64,000 bases of DNA from Oceanithermus profundus DSM 14977 (GTDB taxonomy: Bacteria; Deinococcota; Deinococci; Deinococcales; Marinithermaceae), in NCBI RefSeq assembly GCF_000183745.1, contig NC_014761.1, forward strand, positions 2,108,001 to 2,172,000. Direction: 5' to 3'. The position numbers were made by a program, and so were the translations under genes. The notes under the pieces were generated by a model. The model had not been told where the DNA came from. It worked only from the letters and a program-made list of their open reading frames with translations, and made no database searches. Shown in pieces: positions 626 through 47,496 of this stretch. Position 1 is the stretch's first letter; every line of letters begins with the position of its first letter.

Positions 626-1447
626 CTAAGGGTTCACCTCCACCTTGCAGCGGCCGTAGAGGGGGTTGAAGAGGCTCTTCCCGAAGCGGTCCTTCAGGTA
701 GGCGCCGATTTGCTGCTGCACGTCCGGACGCAGCAGGTAGGCGCGCAAGGCGTAGGCCGCCTCGCGGTTCGCCCCGGGGAAGCGCTCGGGGTTCACCACC
801 ATGTAGCCGTACTGGTTGAGCATGCGCGGATCGGGGCGGTCGAAGAGGCCTTCGAGGTCCACCTTGTCGCGCATGAAGAGGAAGGTGCCGAGGTCGGTGA
901 GGGTGTAGGCGCGCTTCTCGGCGGCCAGGGTGAGCGTCGCCCCCATGCCGCTGCCCGACTCCAGGTACCAGGGGCGGCCCGCGGGGTCGAGCCCGGCGGC
1001 GCGCCACAACGCCTGTTCGCGGTGGTAGGTGCCGGAGTTGTCGCCGCGGCTGACAAAGGCGGCCTCCGCCGCGAAGATGCGGCGCATGGCGTCCAGGGCG
1101 TCCGCGGCCGCGCCCACGCCCGCAGGGTCGGCGGCGGGGCCGGCGATCACGAAGTTGTTGTAGGCGATGCAGGCGTGGGCCACGCCCTTGCCCTCGCGCA
1201 GGAACCGGGCCTCCAGGTCGGGGGCGTGCACCAGCACGGCGTCGGCGTCGCCGCGCCCGGCGATGGCCAGCGCCTGGCCGGTGCCCACCGCGATCACCTG
1301 CACCGGCACCCCGGTCTCGCGGGTGAAGCCGGGGAGGATCGCCTCGAGCAGGCCCGAATCGTTGACGCTGGTGGTGGTGGCCAGGCGCAGCGGCGCGGCC
1401 GCCAGCGCCGCCCCCAGGAGCAGACCCAACGCGATGAGCTTCTTCAT
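626..1447 (-). CDS. tupA: Tungstate-type ABC transporter substrate-binding protein
   Basis: This 273-residue exported solute-binding protein begins with a Sec signal peptide (MKKLIALGLLLGAALAA). It continues with the ATTTSVNDSGLL segment typical of TupA/WtpA-like tungstate binders, and has the PBP-like (PstS-like) fold signature GRGDADAVLVHAP. A perfect GGAGGTGA ribosome-binding site precedes the ATG by 3-4 nt of spacer. The permease gene follows immediately. No lipobox cysteine is seen, so the protein is either periplasmic or surface-retained by other means. Tungstate preference over molybdate is a family-level inference from the N-terminal motif. Confidence 0.85.
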   Translation of the reverse strand: MKKLIALGLLLGAALAAAPLRLATTTSVNDSGLLEAILPGFTRETGVPVQVIAVGTGQALAIAGRGDADAVLVHAPDLEARFLREGKGVAHACIAYNNFVIAGPAADPAGVGAAADALDAMRRIFAAEAAFVSRGDNSGTYHREQALWRAAGLDPAGRPWYLESGSGMGATLTLAAEKRAYTLTDLGTFLFMRDKVDLEGLFDRPDPRMLNQYGYMVVNPERFPGANREAAYALRAYLLRPDVQQQIGAYLKDRFGKSLFNPLYGRCKVEVNP

Positions 1448-1461
1448 CGGTCACCTCCGTA

Positions 1462-1489
1462 TTGCACGACGTTGCAACACCCCCATTCT
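1462..1489 (-). promoter_or_regulatory. tupA promoter -10 box with adjacent inverted repeat
   Basis: On the minus strand a TAGAAT box (1489-1484) is followed by an inverted repeat TTGCA-N6-TGCAA (1462-1477) between the -10 box and the ribosome-binding site. The dyad sits where a repressor would cover the start of transcription. The arms are only 5 bp, so it could be chance; an anion-responsive repressor is a guess. Confidence 0.4.
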
Positions 1490-1504
1490 AGCGCCCGCGC
1501 CCCC

Positions 1505-1532
1505 GGCAAACGCCCCGCCTGGCGGCGGGGCG
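1505..1532 (-). terminator. Terminator downstream of the S1-domain gene
   Basis: A 9-bp stem CGCCCCGCC/GGCGGGGCG (1511-1519 with 1524-1532) with a 4-nt loop lies 18 nt beyond the stop codon of the S1-domain gene and is followed on the minus strand by a short TTT. The weak T-tract lowers confidence in intrinsic termination. Confidence 0.55.
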
Positions 1533-1549
1533 TGCAACGGACGGTCCGG

Positions 1550-1930
1550 TTAGCGTTTCTTGCGGCCGCGGCCGCGCTTCTTGCCGCCTCCGGCGTCCCC
1601 TCCGGAGTCGGAGCCGCGCATGAAGCTCTTGAGCTTGTGCTCGAACTCGGGGGCCTGCCGCGGCAGCCTCCGGGGCTTGGGCGGGTCGACGGGCTTCTCC
1701 ATGAGCTCCTTGATGGAGAGGTCGAGCCGCCCCTTGTCGTCGCGCCCAAGGACGAAGACCTCGACGATGTCGCCCTCGTTCAAGAAGTCGCGCACGTTCT
1801 TGACGAACTCGTGCGCGATCTCGGAGATGTGCACGAGTCCCGATTCGCCTCCGGGAAGCTCCACAAAGGCGCCGAAGTCCATGACCCGCGTAACGCGGCC
1901 TTCCACGATGCTGCCTGCTTCGTACTTCAT
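1550..1930 (-). CDS. S1-domain RNA-binding protein (YugI/GSP13-like)
   Basis: The 126-residue protein has one S1 OB-fold domain over residues 1-75 (GSIVEGRVTRVMDFGAFVEL, GLVHISEIA, VFVLGRDDKGRLDLSIKE). After it comes a proline-rich linker and a very basic tail, GGGKKRGRGRKKR. Single-S1-domain proteins of this type bind RNA and associate with ribosomes; which RNA is bound is not visible. The basic tail would add nonspecific nucleic-acid affinity. It is transcribed alone from a promoter facing the acyl-CoA dehydrogenase gene and ends at a hairpin. Confidence 0.85.
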   Translation of the reverse strand: MKYEAGSIVEGRVTRVMDFGAFVELPGGESGLVHISEIAHEFVKNVRDFLNEGDIVEVFVLGRDDKGRLDLSIKELMEKPVDPPKPRRLPRQAPEFEHKLKSFMRGSDSGGDAGGGKKRGRGRKKR

Positions 1931-2011
1931 TCAGTTCTTCCTCCATGGGGCGCGACCCGCACGCTGGCGGCAGGGACCTAAGGCAAGGCTTTTCGCGCTC
2001 ACGATGGGGCC

Positions 2012-2039
2012 ACTATAGCACATCGCCCCCGGCAGGCAA
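2012..2039 (-). promoter_or_regulatory. Promoter of the S1-domain gene
   Basis: Minus strand: TTGCCT (2039-2034), 16-bp spacer, TATAGT (2017-2012). This is a conventional sigma-A-like promoter giving a leader of about 75 nt before the ATG at 1930. Confidence 0.55.
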
Positions 2040-2058
2040 GCCCGTCTATATAACGCTT

Positions 2059-2106
2059 TTCATGCGGCAGTCCCTGAAGTGATATATTGGCGGTACGGAG
2101 GTCGCC
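2059..2106 (+). promoter_or_regulatory. Promoter and ribosome-binding site of the acyl-CoA dehydrogenase gene
   Basis: A TATATT box (2083-2088) is preceded at 18 bp by a weak TTCATG. ACGGAGG (2095-2101) then serves the GTG at 2107. The strong Shine-Dalgarno at correct spacing decides the GTG start. Confidence 0.5.
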
Positions 2107-3276
<1,170 letters not shown>

Positions 3277-3335
3277 ACGCGGCCTTCCCCCAGTTGGGGG
3301 TACGCCGACCCGGCGGACTCGGCTACCCTGAGGGC

Positions 3336-4988: not shown

Positions 4989-5209
4989 GCACGACGCACC
5001 CCAAACCCCTCGGCGACGCCGTCTTGGACCTGAAGCCCGGCGACCGCCTCTTCGATCCCCAGGCCCACAGGGGCTACCTGATCTACGGCATCCGCATCTA
5101 CGACGACTACGACCACGGCATGCTCGACACCTACTTCGACCTCATCGCCGAAGACGGCACCCACGTAGTGCTGCAGGGGCTGGCCATCAGCCGCTGGGAA
5201 AAGCTCTGA
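4985..5209 (+). CDS. Small hypothetical protein co-transcribed with alaX
   Basis: A 74-residue acidic protein with aromatic-rich sequence (YLIYGIRIYDDYDHG, LDTYFDLIAEDG) and no signal peptide or membrane segment. I do not recognise a family. It overlaps the alaX stop by ATGA and has its own AAAGGAGA ribosome-binding site, so coupled expression with the editing protein is expected. An intrinsic terminator closes the pair. Confidence 0.75.
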   Translation: MSTTHPKPLGDAVLDLKPGDRLFDPQAHRGYLIYGIRIYDDYDHGMLDTYFDLIAEDGTHVVLQGLAISRWEKL

Positions 5210-5228
5210 AGCGAGGGCGCCACGGTAA

Positions 5229-5253
5229 GGCGGGCCACGGCCCGCCCTTTTTT
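5229..5253 (+). terminator. Intrinsic terminator after the alaX operon
   Basis: Stem GGCGGGC/GCCCGCC (5229-5235 with 5240-5246), 4-nt loop, then C and six T. It is the most canonical intrinsic terminator in the window. Confidence 0.85.
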
Positions 5254-5288
5254 CACCCGGTACAATGGCGCATGACAAAGGAGGCGGC

Positions 5289-7622
5289 ATGCGCGTGCTC
5301 ACAATCCTTGGTCGGGTCCTCGCGGGCCTGATCGTCCTGGTCCTGCTGCTCGCCGTGGGCGGCTACTACTACCTGAAGAACGCCACCCTGCCCCAGACCA
5401 ACGGCCGGCTCGTCACCCCCGGCCTCTCGGCGCCGGTGGAGATCCTCCGCGACGCCAACGGCATCGTCCACGTCAAGGCCGCGAACGAGCACGACCTCTT
5501 CTTCGGTCAGGCGGTGGCCCACGCCCAGGAGCGGCTGTGGCAGATGGAGTTCCAGCGGCGCATCGGCGCCGGCCGGCTCGCCGAGGTGCTGGGCGAGGCG
5601 GCCGTGCCCACCGACAAGTTCCTGCGCACCCTCGGGGTCTACCGCGCCGCCGAGCAGGCCTACGAAAACCTGCCGGACGACCTGAAGGCCATCGTCGACG
5701 CCTACGTGGACGGGGTCAACGCCTACCTGGCCACGAACCCGCCGCTGCCGCTCGAGTTCAAGCTGCTCGGCTTCGAGCCCGAGCCCTGGACGCCGGCCGA
5801 CGTGCTGGTGTGGCAGAAGATGATGAGCTACGACCTCAGCGGCAACTACGAGGAAGAGCTGCAGCGCTACCGGCTGCTGGCCCGCGGGCTCAGCAAGGCG
5901 CGCATCGAGGCGCTCATCCCCGGCTATCCGGCCGCGGCCCCCACGATCGTGCGGCGCATTCCCGAGCGGCTGCGCCCGCGGCCTGTCCGCGAAACGGCCC
6001 CGGCCCCCGCGCCCCAGGGCGCGGCCTGGGTGGAGGAGCTGCTGGCGCTGGCACGCACCCTCCCCAGCAGCCTCGAGGCCTCGAACAACTGGGTGGTGGG
6101 CCCCGAGCGCAGCACCACCGGCAAGCCGCTGCTCGCCAACGACCCCCACCTGGGGCTCTCGGCCCCCTCGATCTGGATGCTGATGGAGCTCGAGGCCCCC
6201 ACCTACCGCGCCACCGGCGCCACCTTCCCGGGGCTGCCCACGATCGTCATCGGCAAGAACGAGCGCATCGCCTGGGGGGTGACGAACCACGCCGCCGACG
6301 TGCAGGACCTCTACGTGCTCGAGGAGGCGGAGGGCGGCTACCGCTACCGGGGCGAGGTGCGCCCCTACCACCTCCGGCGCGAGACGATCGCGGTCAAGGA
6401 CGCCGACCCGGTGGTGCTCGAGGTGCGCGAGACCGTCTACGGTCCGGTGATCTCCGACGTCGTGGGCGCCCCCGAAGGACAGGCGCTGGCGCTCCGCTGG
6501 GTCAGCCTCGAGCCTAGCGACGAGACGATGGCCGCCTTCTACGGCATCGGCAAGGCGGCGAACTGGGAGGAGTTCACCGCCGCGCTTTTGCGCCTGAAGG
6601 CCCCGAGCCAGAACTTCGTCTACGCCGACGTGGAGGGCAACATCGGCTACCTCGCCCCGGGCAAGATCCCGGTGCGCAAACCCGGCCACTCGGGCAAGTA
6701 CCCGGTGCCCGGCACCGGCGAATGGGACTGGGTGGGCTTCGTGCCCGCGGAGGCCCTGCCCCGGACCTACAACCCGCCCGAAGGGTACATCGTCACCGCG
6801 AACAACCGCTCGACCCCCGAGGGCTGGCCCTACACCTTCACCCACGACTGGGCCCCGGGCTTTCGGGCCGCGCGCATCGAGCAGCTGATCCGCGCGAGAC
6901 CCAAGCTGAGCCCCGAGGACTTCGCGCGCATCCAAGGCGACGAGGTCAGCCTGATGGCCCGGAGCTTCCGCCCGGTGCTCGAGCGCCTGCGCCCCCAGAG
7001 CGAACGCGCCGCCGAGTGGCACAGGAAGCTGCTCGCCTGGGACGCGAACGAAACCGCCTCCAGCACCGAGGCCACCGTCTTCCAGGCCTGGTACGCGGAG
7101 CTGGCGCGGCTGCCCGAAGCCGAGGTGGGCCAGGCCTACTGGAACGAACCCCTCTATCTGAAACGCGCGCTGCTCGAAGGCGATCCCGCCTGCGACGCCC
7201 GCGGCGTGAGCTGCCTGGACTTCGCCGCCCAGGCGCTGGAGCGCGCCCTGGCGCGCCTCGACGCCCTGGGCGGGATCGTCCCCTGGGGGCAGCTCCACCC
7301 CGCGGTCTTCGATCACGGGGTGATGACCCACCAGCCCCAGCTGCGCCGCTTCTTCGACCGCGAGATCGCCCACGGCGGGGACCGCTTCACCGTCAACATG
7401 GGGGCCTACGACTTCGCCACCTTCCGGATGAACCACGGACCCAGCTACCGCGAGATCGTGGCCCTGGGCCTCCCCGAACAGAGCTACTGGATCCACCCGA
7501 TGGGCCAGTCGGGCAACGTCCTCAGCCGCCACTACGCCGACCTGCTGCCGCTTTGGGCGAACGTCGAGTACCTGCCGATGGGTACGGGGGAACCGGTGGC
7601 GCGGCTGGTGCTCGAACCCTAG
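5289..7622 (+). CDS. Penicillin-acylase family (peptidase S45) N-terminal-nucleophile hydrolase, membrane-anchored
   Basis: The 777-residue precursor has an N-terminal membrane anchor (LTILGRVLAGLIVLVLLLAVGG), then the alpha chain, a Pro/Ala/Arg-rich spacer peptide around residues 225-250, and the beta chain. The beta chain begins at Ser265 in EASNNWVVGPERS. Ser265 is the autocatalytic cleavage site and nucleophile of the family (beta-lactam acylases, acyl-homoserine-lactone acylases, related amidases). The substrate is unknown. The ATG at 5289 follows AAGGAGGC. An in-frame ATG at 5265 lies inside the -10 box (TACAAT, 5261-5266) and is rejected. From the same box a leaderless out-of-frame ATG at 5272 opens a 19-codon frame ending at 5331 that overlaps the start, a possible uORF. 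Confidence 0.88.
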   Translation: MRVLTILGRVLAGLIVLVLLLAVGGYYYLKNATLPQTNGRLVTPGLSAPVEILRDANGIVHVKAANEHDLFFGQAVAHAQERLWQMEFQRRIGAGRLAEVLGEAAVPTDKFLRTLGVYRAAEQAYENLPDDLKAIVDAYVDGVNAYLATNPPLPLEFKLLGFEPEPWTPADVLVWQKMMSYDLSGNYEEELQRYRLLARGLSKARIEALIPGYPAAAPTIVRRIPERLRPRPVRETAPAPAPQGAAWVEELLALARTLPSSLEASNNWVVGPERSTTGKPLLANDPHLGLSAPSIWMLMELEAPTYRATGATFPGLPTIVIGKNERIAWGVTNHAADVQDLYVLEEAEGGYRYRGEVRPYHLRRETIAVKDADPVVLEVRETVYGPVISDVVGAPEGQALALRWVSLEPSDETMAAFYGIGKAANWEEFTAALLRLKAPSQNFVYADVEGNIGYLAPGKIPVRKPGHSGKYPVPGTGEWDWVGFVPAEALPRTYNPPEGYIVTANNRSTPEGWPYTFTHDWAPGFRAARIEQLIRARPKLSPEDFARIQGDEVSLMARSFRPVLERLRPQSERAAEWHRKLLAWDANETASSTEATVFQAWYAELARLPEAEVGQAYWNEPLYLKRALLEGDPACDARGVSCLDFAAQALERALARLDALGGIVPWGQLHPAVFDHGVMTHQPQLRRFFDREIAHGGDRFTVNMGAYDFATFRMNHGPSYREIVALGLPEQSYWIHPMGQSGNVLSRHYADLLPLWANVEYLPMGTGEPVARLVLEP

Positions 7623-44867: not shown

Positions 44868-45005
44868 TATCCCTGAACTTGATTCAGGGCCTGCCCCGGG
44901 CTTGATCCGGGGTCCATGCCGGGCGCGGAGACGGGATTTAGTCGCGGACAGCAACCCGTTGGGGGTTACACAACGAGAGCAGGGCGTTTGGGCCTTGCAT
45001 CGCCC
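44868..45005 (+). repeat. Repeat module R, copy 1
   Basis: About 138 bp matching 45806-45944 in order and content. It starts TATCCC, carries two hairpins (44871-44889 and CCCCGGG-CTTGA-T-CCGGGG at 44894-44912), GGTCCATGCC, a GACAGCAACC segment, and ends GTTTGGGCCTTGCATC before the palindromic element E1. I estimate about three quarters identity with copy 2 by eye. No coding potential. Confidence 0.75.
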
Positions 45006-45199
45006 ACAACCCCCTCCCCGGCCCTCCCCCAGGGGGAGGGAGAGAAACATCACGCCCGCGAACGCAGCGTGAATAAGCCGCCATTCTCCCGAGAGAAGAA
45101 AGCCAAAAAAAATGGCCGTTAAATGTCAAAGCGGCTCAGTTCTGGGCAGCAACATGCCTCCCCCTTGGGGGAGGTGGCCGCAGGCCGGAGGGGGGTTAT
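45006..45199 (+). repeat. Palindromic element E1 with terminal inverted repeats
   Basis: Begins ACAACCCCCTCCCC and ends GGAGGGGGGTTAT. Internal hairpins are CCCTCCCCC/GGGGGAGGG near the left end, CCTCCCCCTTGGGGGAGG and GGCCGCAGGCC near the right end. The middle is about 60 bp longer than in E2 and E3 and includes a poly-A stretch (45105-45112). It ends 72 bp before the DUF559 gene. Confidence 0.75.
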
Positions 45200-45271
45200 T
45201 GGCTCGTCAAGTCAACCTAAGCCGCTAAAGCTGGCGCTTGGTTTCAGCCCAGGTGGGTTAGTCTTCAGTAA

Positions 45272-45649
45272 GTGCCCGTGCCTTACCGCAAAGACCTTGT
45301 GACTCTGGCCCGGAAGCTGCGCAAGAACCCGACCGAACCGGAGAAGAAGCTCTGGTTTGCTTGCTTAAGGCGGCTGAAACAACTTAAGGGCGTCAAGGTC
45401 TACCGGCAAAGGCCTATGCTCGATTACATCGTCGACTTTGAGCTGCGCGACGCCAAAATAGTCGTTGAGATTGACGGCGACAGCCACTACCTGGAAGAAG
45501 CAAGCCGAACAAAAGACGCCCAGCGCGACGCCGCCCTGGCCGAATACGGCTACAAAGTGGTGCGCTTTACCAACGAGCAGGTAATGAAAGAAGCGGAGTG
45601 GGTTTGCGAGGTGATCTACCGCCTGATAACCGAGCGGCTTTCCGTGTAA
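45272..45649 (+). CDS. DUF559 domain endonuclease-like protein (PD-(D/E)XK / Vsr-related)
   Basis: A 125-residue protein of the DUF559 family: LARKLRKNPTEPEKKLWFACL, then QRPMLDYIVDFELRDAKIVVEIDG (read in two parts), which supplies the D...ExD nuclease-type residues, and AALAEYGYKVVRFTNEQVMKE. It is AT-richer than the rest of the window and uses AAA/GAA/TTT codons freely, a sign of transfer. GTG at 45272 has TAGTCT 7 nt upstream; GTG at 45278 is an alternative giving MPYRKD. It lies between elements E1 and E2, the latter starting 11 nt after the stop. Role unknown; a nicking or repair-type nuclease is the family-level guess. Confidence 0.85.
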   Translation: MPVPYRKDLVTLARKLRKNPTEPEKKLWFACLRRLKQLKGVKVYRQRPMLDYIVDFELRDAKIVVEIDGDSHYLEEASRTKDAQRDAALAEYGYKVVRFTNEQVMKEAEWVCEVIYRLITERLSV

Positions 45650-45659
45650 TTCAGCGCCG

Positions 45660-45792
45660 ACAACCCCCACCTCAGCCCTCCCCCAGGGGAGGGAGGAAAA
45701 AAAGACGGCCGCTTAATACCAAAGTGGCTCTGCTCCGGGAAGGAACAAGCCTCCCCCTCGGGGGAGTTGGCCGCGGGCCGGAGGGGGGTTGT
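45660..45792 (+). repeat. Palindromic element E2 with terminal inverted repeats
   Basis: About 133 bp, begins ACAACCCCCACCTC and ends GGAGGGGGGTTGT. Internal parts match E3: GACGGCCGC, AAAG-GGCTC, AAGCCTCCCCC-GGGGGAG, GGCCGCGGGCCGG. It starts 11 nt after the DUF559 stop codon. Confidence 0.75.
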
Positions 45793-45805
45793 TTACCCCA
45801 TTTCG

Positions 45806-45944
45806 TATCCCCGGACTTGATCCGGGAGCCTGCCCCGGGCTTGATCCGGGGTCCATGCCGGGGGTGGAGCCAAGACTTAGTCGCTGACAGCAACCGGATG
45901 TGGTTTACGCAACAAGAGCAGGACGTTTAGTCTTTGCATCACCA
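45806..45944 (+). repeat. Repeat module R, copy 2
   Basis: About 139 bp, the counterpart of 44868-45005. It has hairpins CCCGGA-CTTGA-TCCGGG (45810-45826 region) and CCCCGGG-CTTGA-T-CCGGGG (45833-45851), then GGTCCATGCC, GACAGCAACC, GCAACAAGAGCAGGACG and TTTGCATC, immediately before E3. Confidence 0.75.
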
Positions 45945-46075
45945 ACAACCCCCTCCCCAACCCTCCCCGAGGGGAGGGAAAAGAATGACGGCCGCGTAAT
46001 GGCAAAGCAGCTCGGTTCTGAGAGGGGGCAAGCCTCCCCCTTGGGGGAGGTGGCCGCAGGCCGGAGGGGGGTTGT
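45945..46075 (+). repeat. Palindromic element E3 with terminal inverted repeats
   Basis: About 131 bp, begins ACAACCCCCTCCCC and ends GGAGGGGGGTTGT. Right-hand 40 bp (CCTCCCCCTTGGGGGAGG, TGGCCGCAGGCCGGAGG) are identical to E1. It has the length and organisation of E2. Confidence 0.78.
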
Positions 46076-46346
46076 TCAGCTGGATGAGAGCAAAGAAATA
46101 TTATGCAGGCAGGCCCCGAATCAAAAACCGGGCGTTTGGCCATGCATCATCAACAACCCCCTCCCCAACCCTCCCCAAGGGGAGGGAGAAAACTGCCGGA
46201 CAATAAAAACTGGTCGTAGGTTGATGACCCGGTCTGGACCCTGGTTTTCGCTGGGGTGACGAACTGCTCTTGCCCGGGGGCACAAAAGATAGCCGATCGA
46301 TACCCGACAGGTCATTTTTCCGATGGCGTGGGCGTAGGCTGAGGGC
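46076..46346. other. Non-coding stretch around E4 and upstream of the fetB-like gene
   Basis: Apart from E4 and the module-R remnant, this AT-richer stretch holds no credible reading frame. A short AATAAAAAC run follows E4, and near 46236-46262 the phrase GGTTTTCGCTGGGGTGACG looks like a further degenerate repeat. The fetB-like promoter (TAGGCT, 46335-46340) closes it. Confidence 0.5.
46153..46190 (+). repeat. Element E4, left half only
   Basis: ACAACCCCCTCCCC followed by AACCCTCCCC-AA-GGGGAGGG, then sequence unrelated to the right half of E1-E3. It is preceded by GGGCGTTTGG-CC-ATGCATC, a remnant of module R. This looks like a truncated copy, giving a view of where the element breaks. Confidence 0.65.
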
Positions 46347-47143: not shown

Positions 47144-47183
47144 TTTGCCGAGCGGGTCGCGTATTCTTGCGCGCGCGGCGAGG

Positions 47184-47245
47184 TTCCGGACCTGTCCCGG
47201 GCTTGACCCGGGATCGCGGGAGCCCTGCGGCCCCCTTGTCCGGAA
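47184..47245. repeat. 62-bp element with 8-bp terminal inverted repeats
   Basis: TTCCGGAC at 47184-47191 and GTCCGGAA at 47238-47245 are perfect inverted repeats. Inside is a nested hairpin TCCCGGG-CTTGA-CCCGGGA (47195-47213). That hairpin is the same family as those of module R (CCCGG-CTTGAT-CCGGG), linking this element to the DUF559 island. Confidence 0.65.
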
Positions 47246-47496
47246 CGACGAGTTTATTTTTCCTGTTCGTCACCCCGGACAAGCGCCCAAAGGGCGCGCG
47301 ATCCGGGGTCTCGCGGGTGCTGCTGAGCACCCCAACGCCAAGATCAAAGTTCTGAGCCCCGCGGATCGAGGTTCGGGCCCTGTCCCGGACGTGATCCGGG
47401 GCCTTACCGGGGCAGGTTCGGGTTCGCGCTCGTGGAGGAAGGCAAGGCCGACCGGAGGTTGCGGTGCGGCTTTGCCCGCGGGCGTAGACTGCGGAC
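47246..47496. other. Non-coding stretch with further degenerate palindromes before the GH13 gene
   Basis: Contains CACCCCGGACAAGCGCCC / GGGCGCGCGATCCGGGGTC (47272-47312), forming an imperfect palindrome. Another CTTGAT-type hairpin variant lies at 47383-47400 (TCCCGGACGTGATCCGGG). No credible gene. The GH13 promoter TAGACT is at 47485-47490. Confidence 0.5.

Follow-up and report, generated by a model that had tools for sequence, protein, structure and literature searches.

Palindromic repeats of the REP type are common in bacteria. In the RAYT-REP/REPIN systems a single enzyme gene (TnpA-REP, a Y1 transposase of the HUH type) is flanked by palindromes that are also dispersed without the gene; the palindromes form inverted doublets with small structured ends, and the tree of the enzyme mostly follows that of the hosts. 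CGTC REPs, a large class, were described in a 2013 survey of GTAG and CGTC REPs as being without a dedicated transposase, and the enzyme that spreads them, if any, is an open question (PMC3733652). Among nucleases, EDxHD enzymes are a recognised homing family (PMC3943268), to which a DUF559 gene has been assigned (PMC9403480).

We analyzed a stretch of 64,000 nucleotides from Oceanithermus profundus DSM 14977 (the window), in which a DUF559 gene lies among palindromic elements, here called E elements. The gene and the palindromes look like an unrecognised selfish or mobile system, similar to REP/transposase pairs with an unrelated enzyme. We consider it probable (roughly 0.6) that they constitute one nuclease-palindrome system, with an autonomous gene-bearing unit and non-autonomous palindromic relatives. 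No prior report of a link between DUF559 and palindromes or repeats was found in the open-access literature, including the topics of REP/RAYT-endonuclease and GIY-YIG-REP associations.

The initial annotation of the window had likened the locus to RAYT-REP. The likeness stands for the gene flanked by dispersed palindromes and for the inverted doublets, but not for the enzyme or the tag. DUF559 is a PD-(D/E)XK/EDxHD nuclease whereas RAYT is a Y1 transposase, no Y1_Tnp domain (PF01797) was detected in the 2.44 Mb genome of the window, and none of the 47 element ends listed has a GTAG or CGTC tag at the foot of the hairpin (consensus AACAACCCCC). Membership in RAYT/REP was therefore rejected. Unlike REPs, the E elements also have terminal pyrimidine tracts that mirror a hairpin arm. 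They share with CGTC REPs their dispersed, REP-type palindromic nature and the want of a known dedicated enzyme, but not the CGTC tag.

The DUF559 gene and its repeats in the window

Three complete elements (E1 to E3) and one half element (E4) are present at the positions originally assigned to them, and the spacing between the DUF559 stop codon and E2 was borne out (Table 1). E2 and E3 are identical at 110 of about 133 positions, and the E elements have terminal inverted repeats (ACAACCCCC...GGGGGTTGT). The ends that had been described as common to all copies are present but not perfectly uniform, E1 ending in GGAGGGGGGTTAT and E2 beginning with ACAACCCCCACC. The gene is, as first noted, AT-richer than its surroundings (56% GC against 71% GC in the window). 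Module R is a real repeat as well, with 84% identity over 158 nt between 44889-45046 and 45828-45985 and a remnant 5' of E4; it was rejected as a part of the nuclease-palindrome system, its CTTGATCCGGGG palindromes belonging to another dispersed family, and no R-like sequence was seen beside DUF559 in other phyla. A second family of dispersed palindromes (Y-CCGGGCTTGACCCGGG type) occurs at 47168-47323 of the window, and further interleaved repeat families (GTAGTACGTGG-, TAGCCTGTAGCTTG- and CCTACATCCCACC-type) were observed at positions 890-1760 of locus L020, in the region of L045 and at other intergenic sites of the same genome.

Table 1. Features of the DUF559 locus, in window coordinates
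Feature	Position	Strand	Evidence
DUF559 (PF04480) nuclease gene, 125 aa, GTG start	45272..45649	+	Pfam E = 7.9e-31
E1, complete palindromic element 5' of the DUF559 gene, with ~60 extra internal bases	45006..45199	.	
E2, complete palindromic element, starting 11 nt past the DUF559 stop codon	45660..45792	.	
E3, complete palindromic element	45945..46075	.	
E4, left half element (terminal tract and first hairpin)	46153..46190	.	
Left-type end ACAACCCCCTCCCC-GG-CCCTCCCCC-A-GGGGGAGGG: terminal pyrimidine tract, 2-3 nt, hairpin with mirror arm	45006..45042	+	47 genome-wide ends aligned by eye; mirror test
Right-type end: hairpin CCTCCCCC..GGGGGAG, small hairpin GGCCGCGGGCC, terminal GGAGGGGGGTTGT	45745..45792	+	47-end alignment; small-hairpin covariation
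Module R, copy 1, with CTTGATCCGGGG-type palindromes (separate dispersed repeat family)	44889..45005	.	
Module R, copy 2	45828..45944	.	

Residues R17, E24, W28, Q46, D55, F56, E66, D68, G69, H72, D82, R85 and R98 are invariant in 22 diverse DUF559 proteins, and all are intact in the window protein. Its AF2 model (pLDDT 88.6) was matched by Foldseek first to the DUF559 structure 3hrl, then to the catalytic domain of the homing endonuclease I-Bth0305I (3r3p; E 9e-5, TM 0.76 by target) and, more weakly, to Vsr (1cw0/1vsr). By this fold and the EDxHD assignment cited above, this class of nuclease does have an established mobility role, whereas the initial annotation knew of none. DUF559 shares with I-Bth0305I and Vsr the predicted fold and the conserved acidic and His residues; it differs from them in being a single small domain without an extended DNA-binding region, and from the homing enzymes in going with palindromic repeats rather than introns. 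The neighbors of the window gene are PriA and a membrane protein, and unlike Vsr it has no cytosine methylase beside it. In the congener G010 the slot downstream of priA (L201, G010:C7:78000-84800) holds a true Dcm-Vsr island, with the cytosine methylase (Dcm), a helicase-like gene and a true Vsr. The Caulobacter DUF559 protein VsrA is reportedly the cause of the DNA damage response that follows loss of a cytosine methylase (PMC12907096), which suggests that the family is nuclease-active in vivo.

The window DUF559 is free-standing, and a homologue in Kapaibacterium (L129, 565-879) lies inside an intein-like (Hint) open frame, where it suggestively would serve as the homing endonuclease of the intein. 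This location and the fold would both suit a homing-type selfish gene, for which the elements are recognition or landing sites: a free-standing DUF559 would use break repair to place its own gene in or between palindromes that were already there, and the palindromes would spread otherwise. The recognised homing status of EDxHD enzymes and the occurrence of elements in genomes without DUF559 also speak for such a gene, which we nevertheless hold to be unlikely in view of the empty sites described below.

The genome of the window (2.44 Mb, 2 contigs) has one PF04480 match, the window DUF559 gene, in a search of the genome itself. The E element gave 35 BLAST segments on the chromosome, grouped by eye into about 25 sites, a recurrence that is not due to chance. 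The hairpin core CCCYCCCC-N2-9-GGGGRGGG was matched 30 times against once for the reversed control pattern. In this genome a single gene coexists with gene-less elements at about 25 sites. E elements are also found, without a detected DUF559 gene, in the congeners G010 (100% complete) and G012-G014 (drafts), so the gene is not needed for the elements to persist. A PF04480 match in G010 was considered as a DUF559 gene and rejected, being the true Vsr gene.

Anatomy of the elements

The 47 element ends listed genome-wide, which were aligned by eye, fall into two kinds. The left type has the consensus CCAACAACCCCC(A/T)CCCC-GG/AA-CCCTCCCC; the right type consists of AAACAACCCCCCTCC, a small hairpin and A-CCTCCCCC-AA-GGGGGAGG. 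In a complete element one end of each type stands on either side of a spacer, in inverted orientation, as in REPINs. The anatomy common to the ends is a terminal C-rich tract, followed by 2-3 nt or a small covarying hairpin, and then a hairpin with an arm that mirrors the terminal tract. In the small hairpin pairing is kept while the letters vary (GGCC/GGCC, GGCTGC/GCAGCC, GGCGGC/GCCGCC, GGTTGC/GCAACC); its covariation score was reached by none of 500 shuffles and was far lower in slid controls, for 14 sequences whose relatedness to one another is a caveat.

The terminal tract mirrors the hairpin arm in many phyla, for example CCCCCTCC-TAG-CCTCCCCC or TCTCCTCC-CAA-CCTCCTCT-loop-AGAGGAGG. Perfect 8/8 mirrors were found at 22 of 51 informative ends, against 4 perfect direct repeats, with a spacer of mostly 3 nt, and the mirror was better than the direct repeat in 33 cases to 4 (sign test 1e-6, for ends that are not fully independent). 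Mirror tracts of pyrimidines are what H-DNA classically requires. Single-strand folding energies of whole elements (E2 and E3) were weakly below those of shuffles (z -1.6 to -1.8).

Association of DUF559 with one palindromic architecture across phyla

One scan of 84,980 species genomes with one query gave 80 DUF559 loci, with distant DUF559 branches under-sampled. The loci span more than 10 phyla, with Deinococcota, Proteobacteria, Bacteroidota, Cyanobacteria, Thermodesulfobacteriota, Chloroflexota, Actinomycetota and several candidate phyla represented. We counted hairpins with a pyrimidine-rich 5' arm (YR) and, as a composition-matched control, the opposite kind (RY). The density of perfect YR hairpins was 2.91 per kb within 250 bp of DUF559, 0.48 at 251-500 bp, 0.125 at 501-1000 bp and 0.048 at 1-5 kb, a 60-fold drop within 1 kb, while RY hairpins were flat at 0.05 per kb. 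With slightly relaxed arms, a YR hairpin lies within 300 bp in 72 of the 80 loci (on both sides in 41), against a mean of 3.7% of windows from the same loci; the corresponding RY values are 2 of 80 and 1.8%. Three of the eight loci without a YR match (L062, L064 and L070) are from AT-rich alphaproteobacteria, and in L062 and L064 such elements are visible, with too few C for the hairpin filter. The left and right flanks have 14-mers in common at 47 of 78 loci, compared with 2.3% of 2,881 control windows. The letters of the element vary by lineage and the plan is constant.

Within the class Deinococci, 13 of 16 standalone DUF559 genes have a YR hairpin within 300 bp, against none of 12 equally small GIY-YIG genes and none of 13 UvrC genes (Fisher 3e-8 for DUF559 against the two together); none of 11 weak or long DUF559-like matches has one. 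These results show that DUF559 is specifically linked, across phyla, to one palindromic-element architecture, and the tie between gene and palindromes proposed from the window is strongly supported. The initial annotation had named two observations that would make this link coincidental. Elements without the gene were encountered in part, in G010 and other congeners where no DUF559 was found; a lack of elements near DUF559 homologues was clearly not what we observed.

The association could also arise if the same permissive intergenic regions act as repeat dumps for DUF559 genes and palindromes alike, both moved by unrelated transposases. Several repeat families are indeed interleaved in the intergenic regions of the window's genus, module R being part of another family, but the same architecture stands beside DUF559 in phyla with unrelated repeat content and is missing from GIY-YIG genes of the same genomes. 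With the steep local fall in hairpin density added, we regard such hitchhiking as very improbable.

The gene is tightly embedded between hairpins: the nearest one begins a median of 29 nt past the DUF559 stop codon, and on the other side the hairpin ends a median of 67 nt before the domain. A position within about 30 nt of the stop, seen in many loci, would be expected if the elements served the gene in cis, for its regulation or protection (as terminators, autoregulatory operators, or self-marking sites for a repair or defence nuclease, as proposed for Caulobacter VsrA), their dispersed copies being by-products. The reported involvement of a DUF559 protein in DNA damage in Caulobacter cells without the cytosine methylase (PMC12907096) would agree with such a role. 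We find it improbable all the same, given the approximately 25 gene-less sites in the window genome, the complete element doublets on both sides of DUF559, and the empty and filled insertion sites and internally deleted derivative described below.

Within family f4 the number of elements is positively, if modestly, associated with the gene, DUF559 carriers having more YR hairpins than non-carriers (p = 0.003). The tree of DUF559 mostly follows host phyla, although it has too few columns and several mis-framed rows; the minus-strand loci L033, L036, L042 and L043 were read in the wrong frame, which makes the placement of Deinococcota unreliable. Its largely host-like form indicates that the unit is not a promiscuous horizontal element and is more like the long-resident RAYTs. 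Several single observations were made in this collection. A member of the Deinococci class (G024) has 210 copies of the YR hairpin pattern and a single DUF559 gene. The DUF559 genes of G005 and G008 were considered as recent within-genome duplicates, which was rejected since their scores are too different. In Winogradskyella and kin (L103, L109, L113, L121, L125, L130, L132, L137 and L140) DUF559 reads as one portion of a frame of about 445 aa, not as a standalone gene. In Eggerthella sinensis (L136, around 5001-5351) DUF559 has none of the usual hairpins; several TGTTTCACGTGAAACA palindromes with the look of parS sites flank it.

Filled and empty sites and the possible spread of the elements

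Comparison of orthologous sites revealed a precise filled/empty site in genus g12, which we take to be Meiothermus-like. At the junction of an hpaE/hpaB-like (aldehyde-dehydrogenase/oxygenase) operon, 15 of 18 genomes are bare, with a short stop-RBS-start gap of 16-25 bp and no palindrome, and three (G034, G041 and G033) carry DUF559. The G034 insert, about 485 bp long, ends in a hairpin on either side of DUF559, the right one abutting host sequence (GGAGGGGGG|AAAAAGGAGG); G042, which is 97% identical to G034 over the upstream gene, is without the insert. In G041 the element is on one side of DUF559, and G033 has two elements on the same side, so that G034 alone among the three has palindromes at both ends. 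The unit of gene and palindromes is a genuine insertion, and this junction shows its precise gain or loss, without direction. Since the DUF559 genes of G034 and G041 align, the three filled sites may descend from one old insertion that was lost in the other genomes. The empty sites, having no palindrome, also indicate that DUF559 did not arrive there by homing into an element already in place. The single clean filled/empty pair shows no clear target-site duplication.

In the genus of the window the cluster has no clean empty site among congeners (the slot is occupied in G010, contigs of G012 break at repeats and G014 is rearranged). For ten other E sites a composite flank search in relatives gave two that are clearly shorter; the E-bearing intergenic blocks near 634 kb and 1,793 kb are about 560-700 bp longer in the window genome than in G010/G013. 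The inserts in these two blocks are nested with other repeat families, on account of which target duplications are unreadable at E sites of this genus. In a Peribacteria genome (L117) a DUF559 relic with an internal deletion comes after the right element and before a further element, an arrangement expected of a non-autonomous derivative. The locus L032 (G108; nt 958-3324) has an element and a DUF559 frame inserted in frame within a DUF1156-like gene, and further on another palindrome is also translated in frame (LSPQPPLPSGEGAKGVR). The DUF559 cluster of G011 (L202, G011:C198), compared with the L011 site, joins genes that are far apart in the window genome, which suggests either rearrangement at E clusters or misassembly of a draft.

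These relations resemble those of MITEs to their parental transposons: the gene-less elements are short, have terminal inverted repeats that resemble the ends of the gene-bearing unit, and include one internally deleted derivative (L117). Unlike MITEs, they have no DDE transposase, and the one clean site shows no clear target-site duplication. In the nuclease-palindrome system that we favor, the DUF559 protein would recognise the terminal tract and hairpin, whether as a cruciform, a single-strand hairpin or a triplex, and would cut at the element end or at the target; the break would then receive a copy of the element through host repair or replication. The autonomous form would be the unit with the gene, and the short E elements would be non-autonomous derivatives keeping the ends only, in the manner of REPINs beside RAYT or of MITEs beside a transposon. 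Mobilisation, as initially proposed, agrees with the presence and absence of the unit at a precise site; that the DUF559 nuclease drives the movement is what we infer. The explanation is weakened by the persistence of elements in congeners without a detected gene, by the one-sided elements of G041 and G033, by G111 (L087), where only one of four element copies is away from the DUF559 gene, and by the host-following tree and the want of a clear target-site duplication.

If true, this explanation would give DUF559 a function, provide a nuclease-based route of dispersal alongside the RAYT transposases, and account for the frequent hairpins beside DUF559 genes. A family of unknown function is tied to a class of repeats across phyla, and with the enzyme, substrates and precise empty sites defined the system is directly testable. 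A wider proposal, which we advance tentatively and with somewhat less than even confidence, is that a nuclease and not a transposase spreads a very widespread class of bacterial palindromic repeats, that DUF559 reads the ends through the mirror-repeat hairpin (possibly as an intramolecular triplex), that a parallel GIY-YIG/CGTC-like system exists, and that several homing-type nuclease families each have their own REP-like repeats.

GIY-YIG genes with palindromes possibly represent a second nuclease-repeat pair, and hence a candidate enzyme for CGTC-type REPs. CGTC-like palindromes adjoin standalone GIY-YIG genes at some loci. Palindromes of the Y-CCGGGCTTGACCCGGG type flank the standalone GIY-YIG gene of the window genome (L172, G000:C2:1414147-1414365); similar ones flank standalone GIY-YIG genes in G011, and palindromes of the GTCATTCC type do so in G033-G035.
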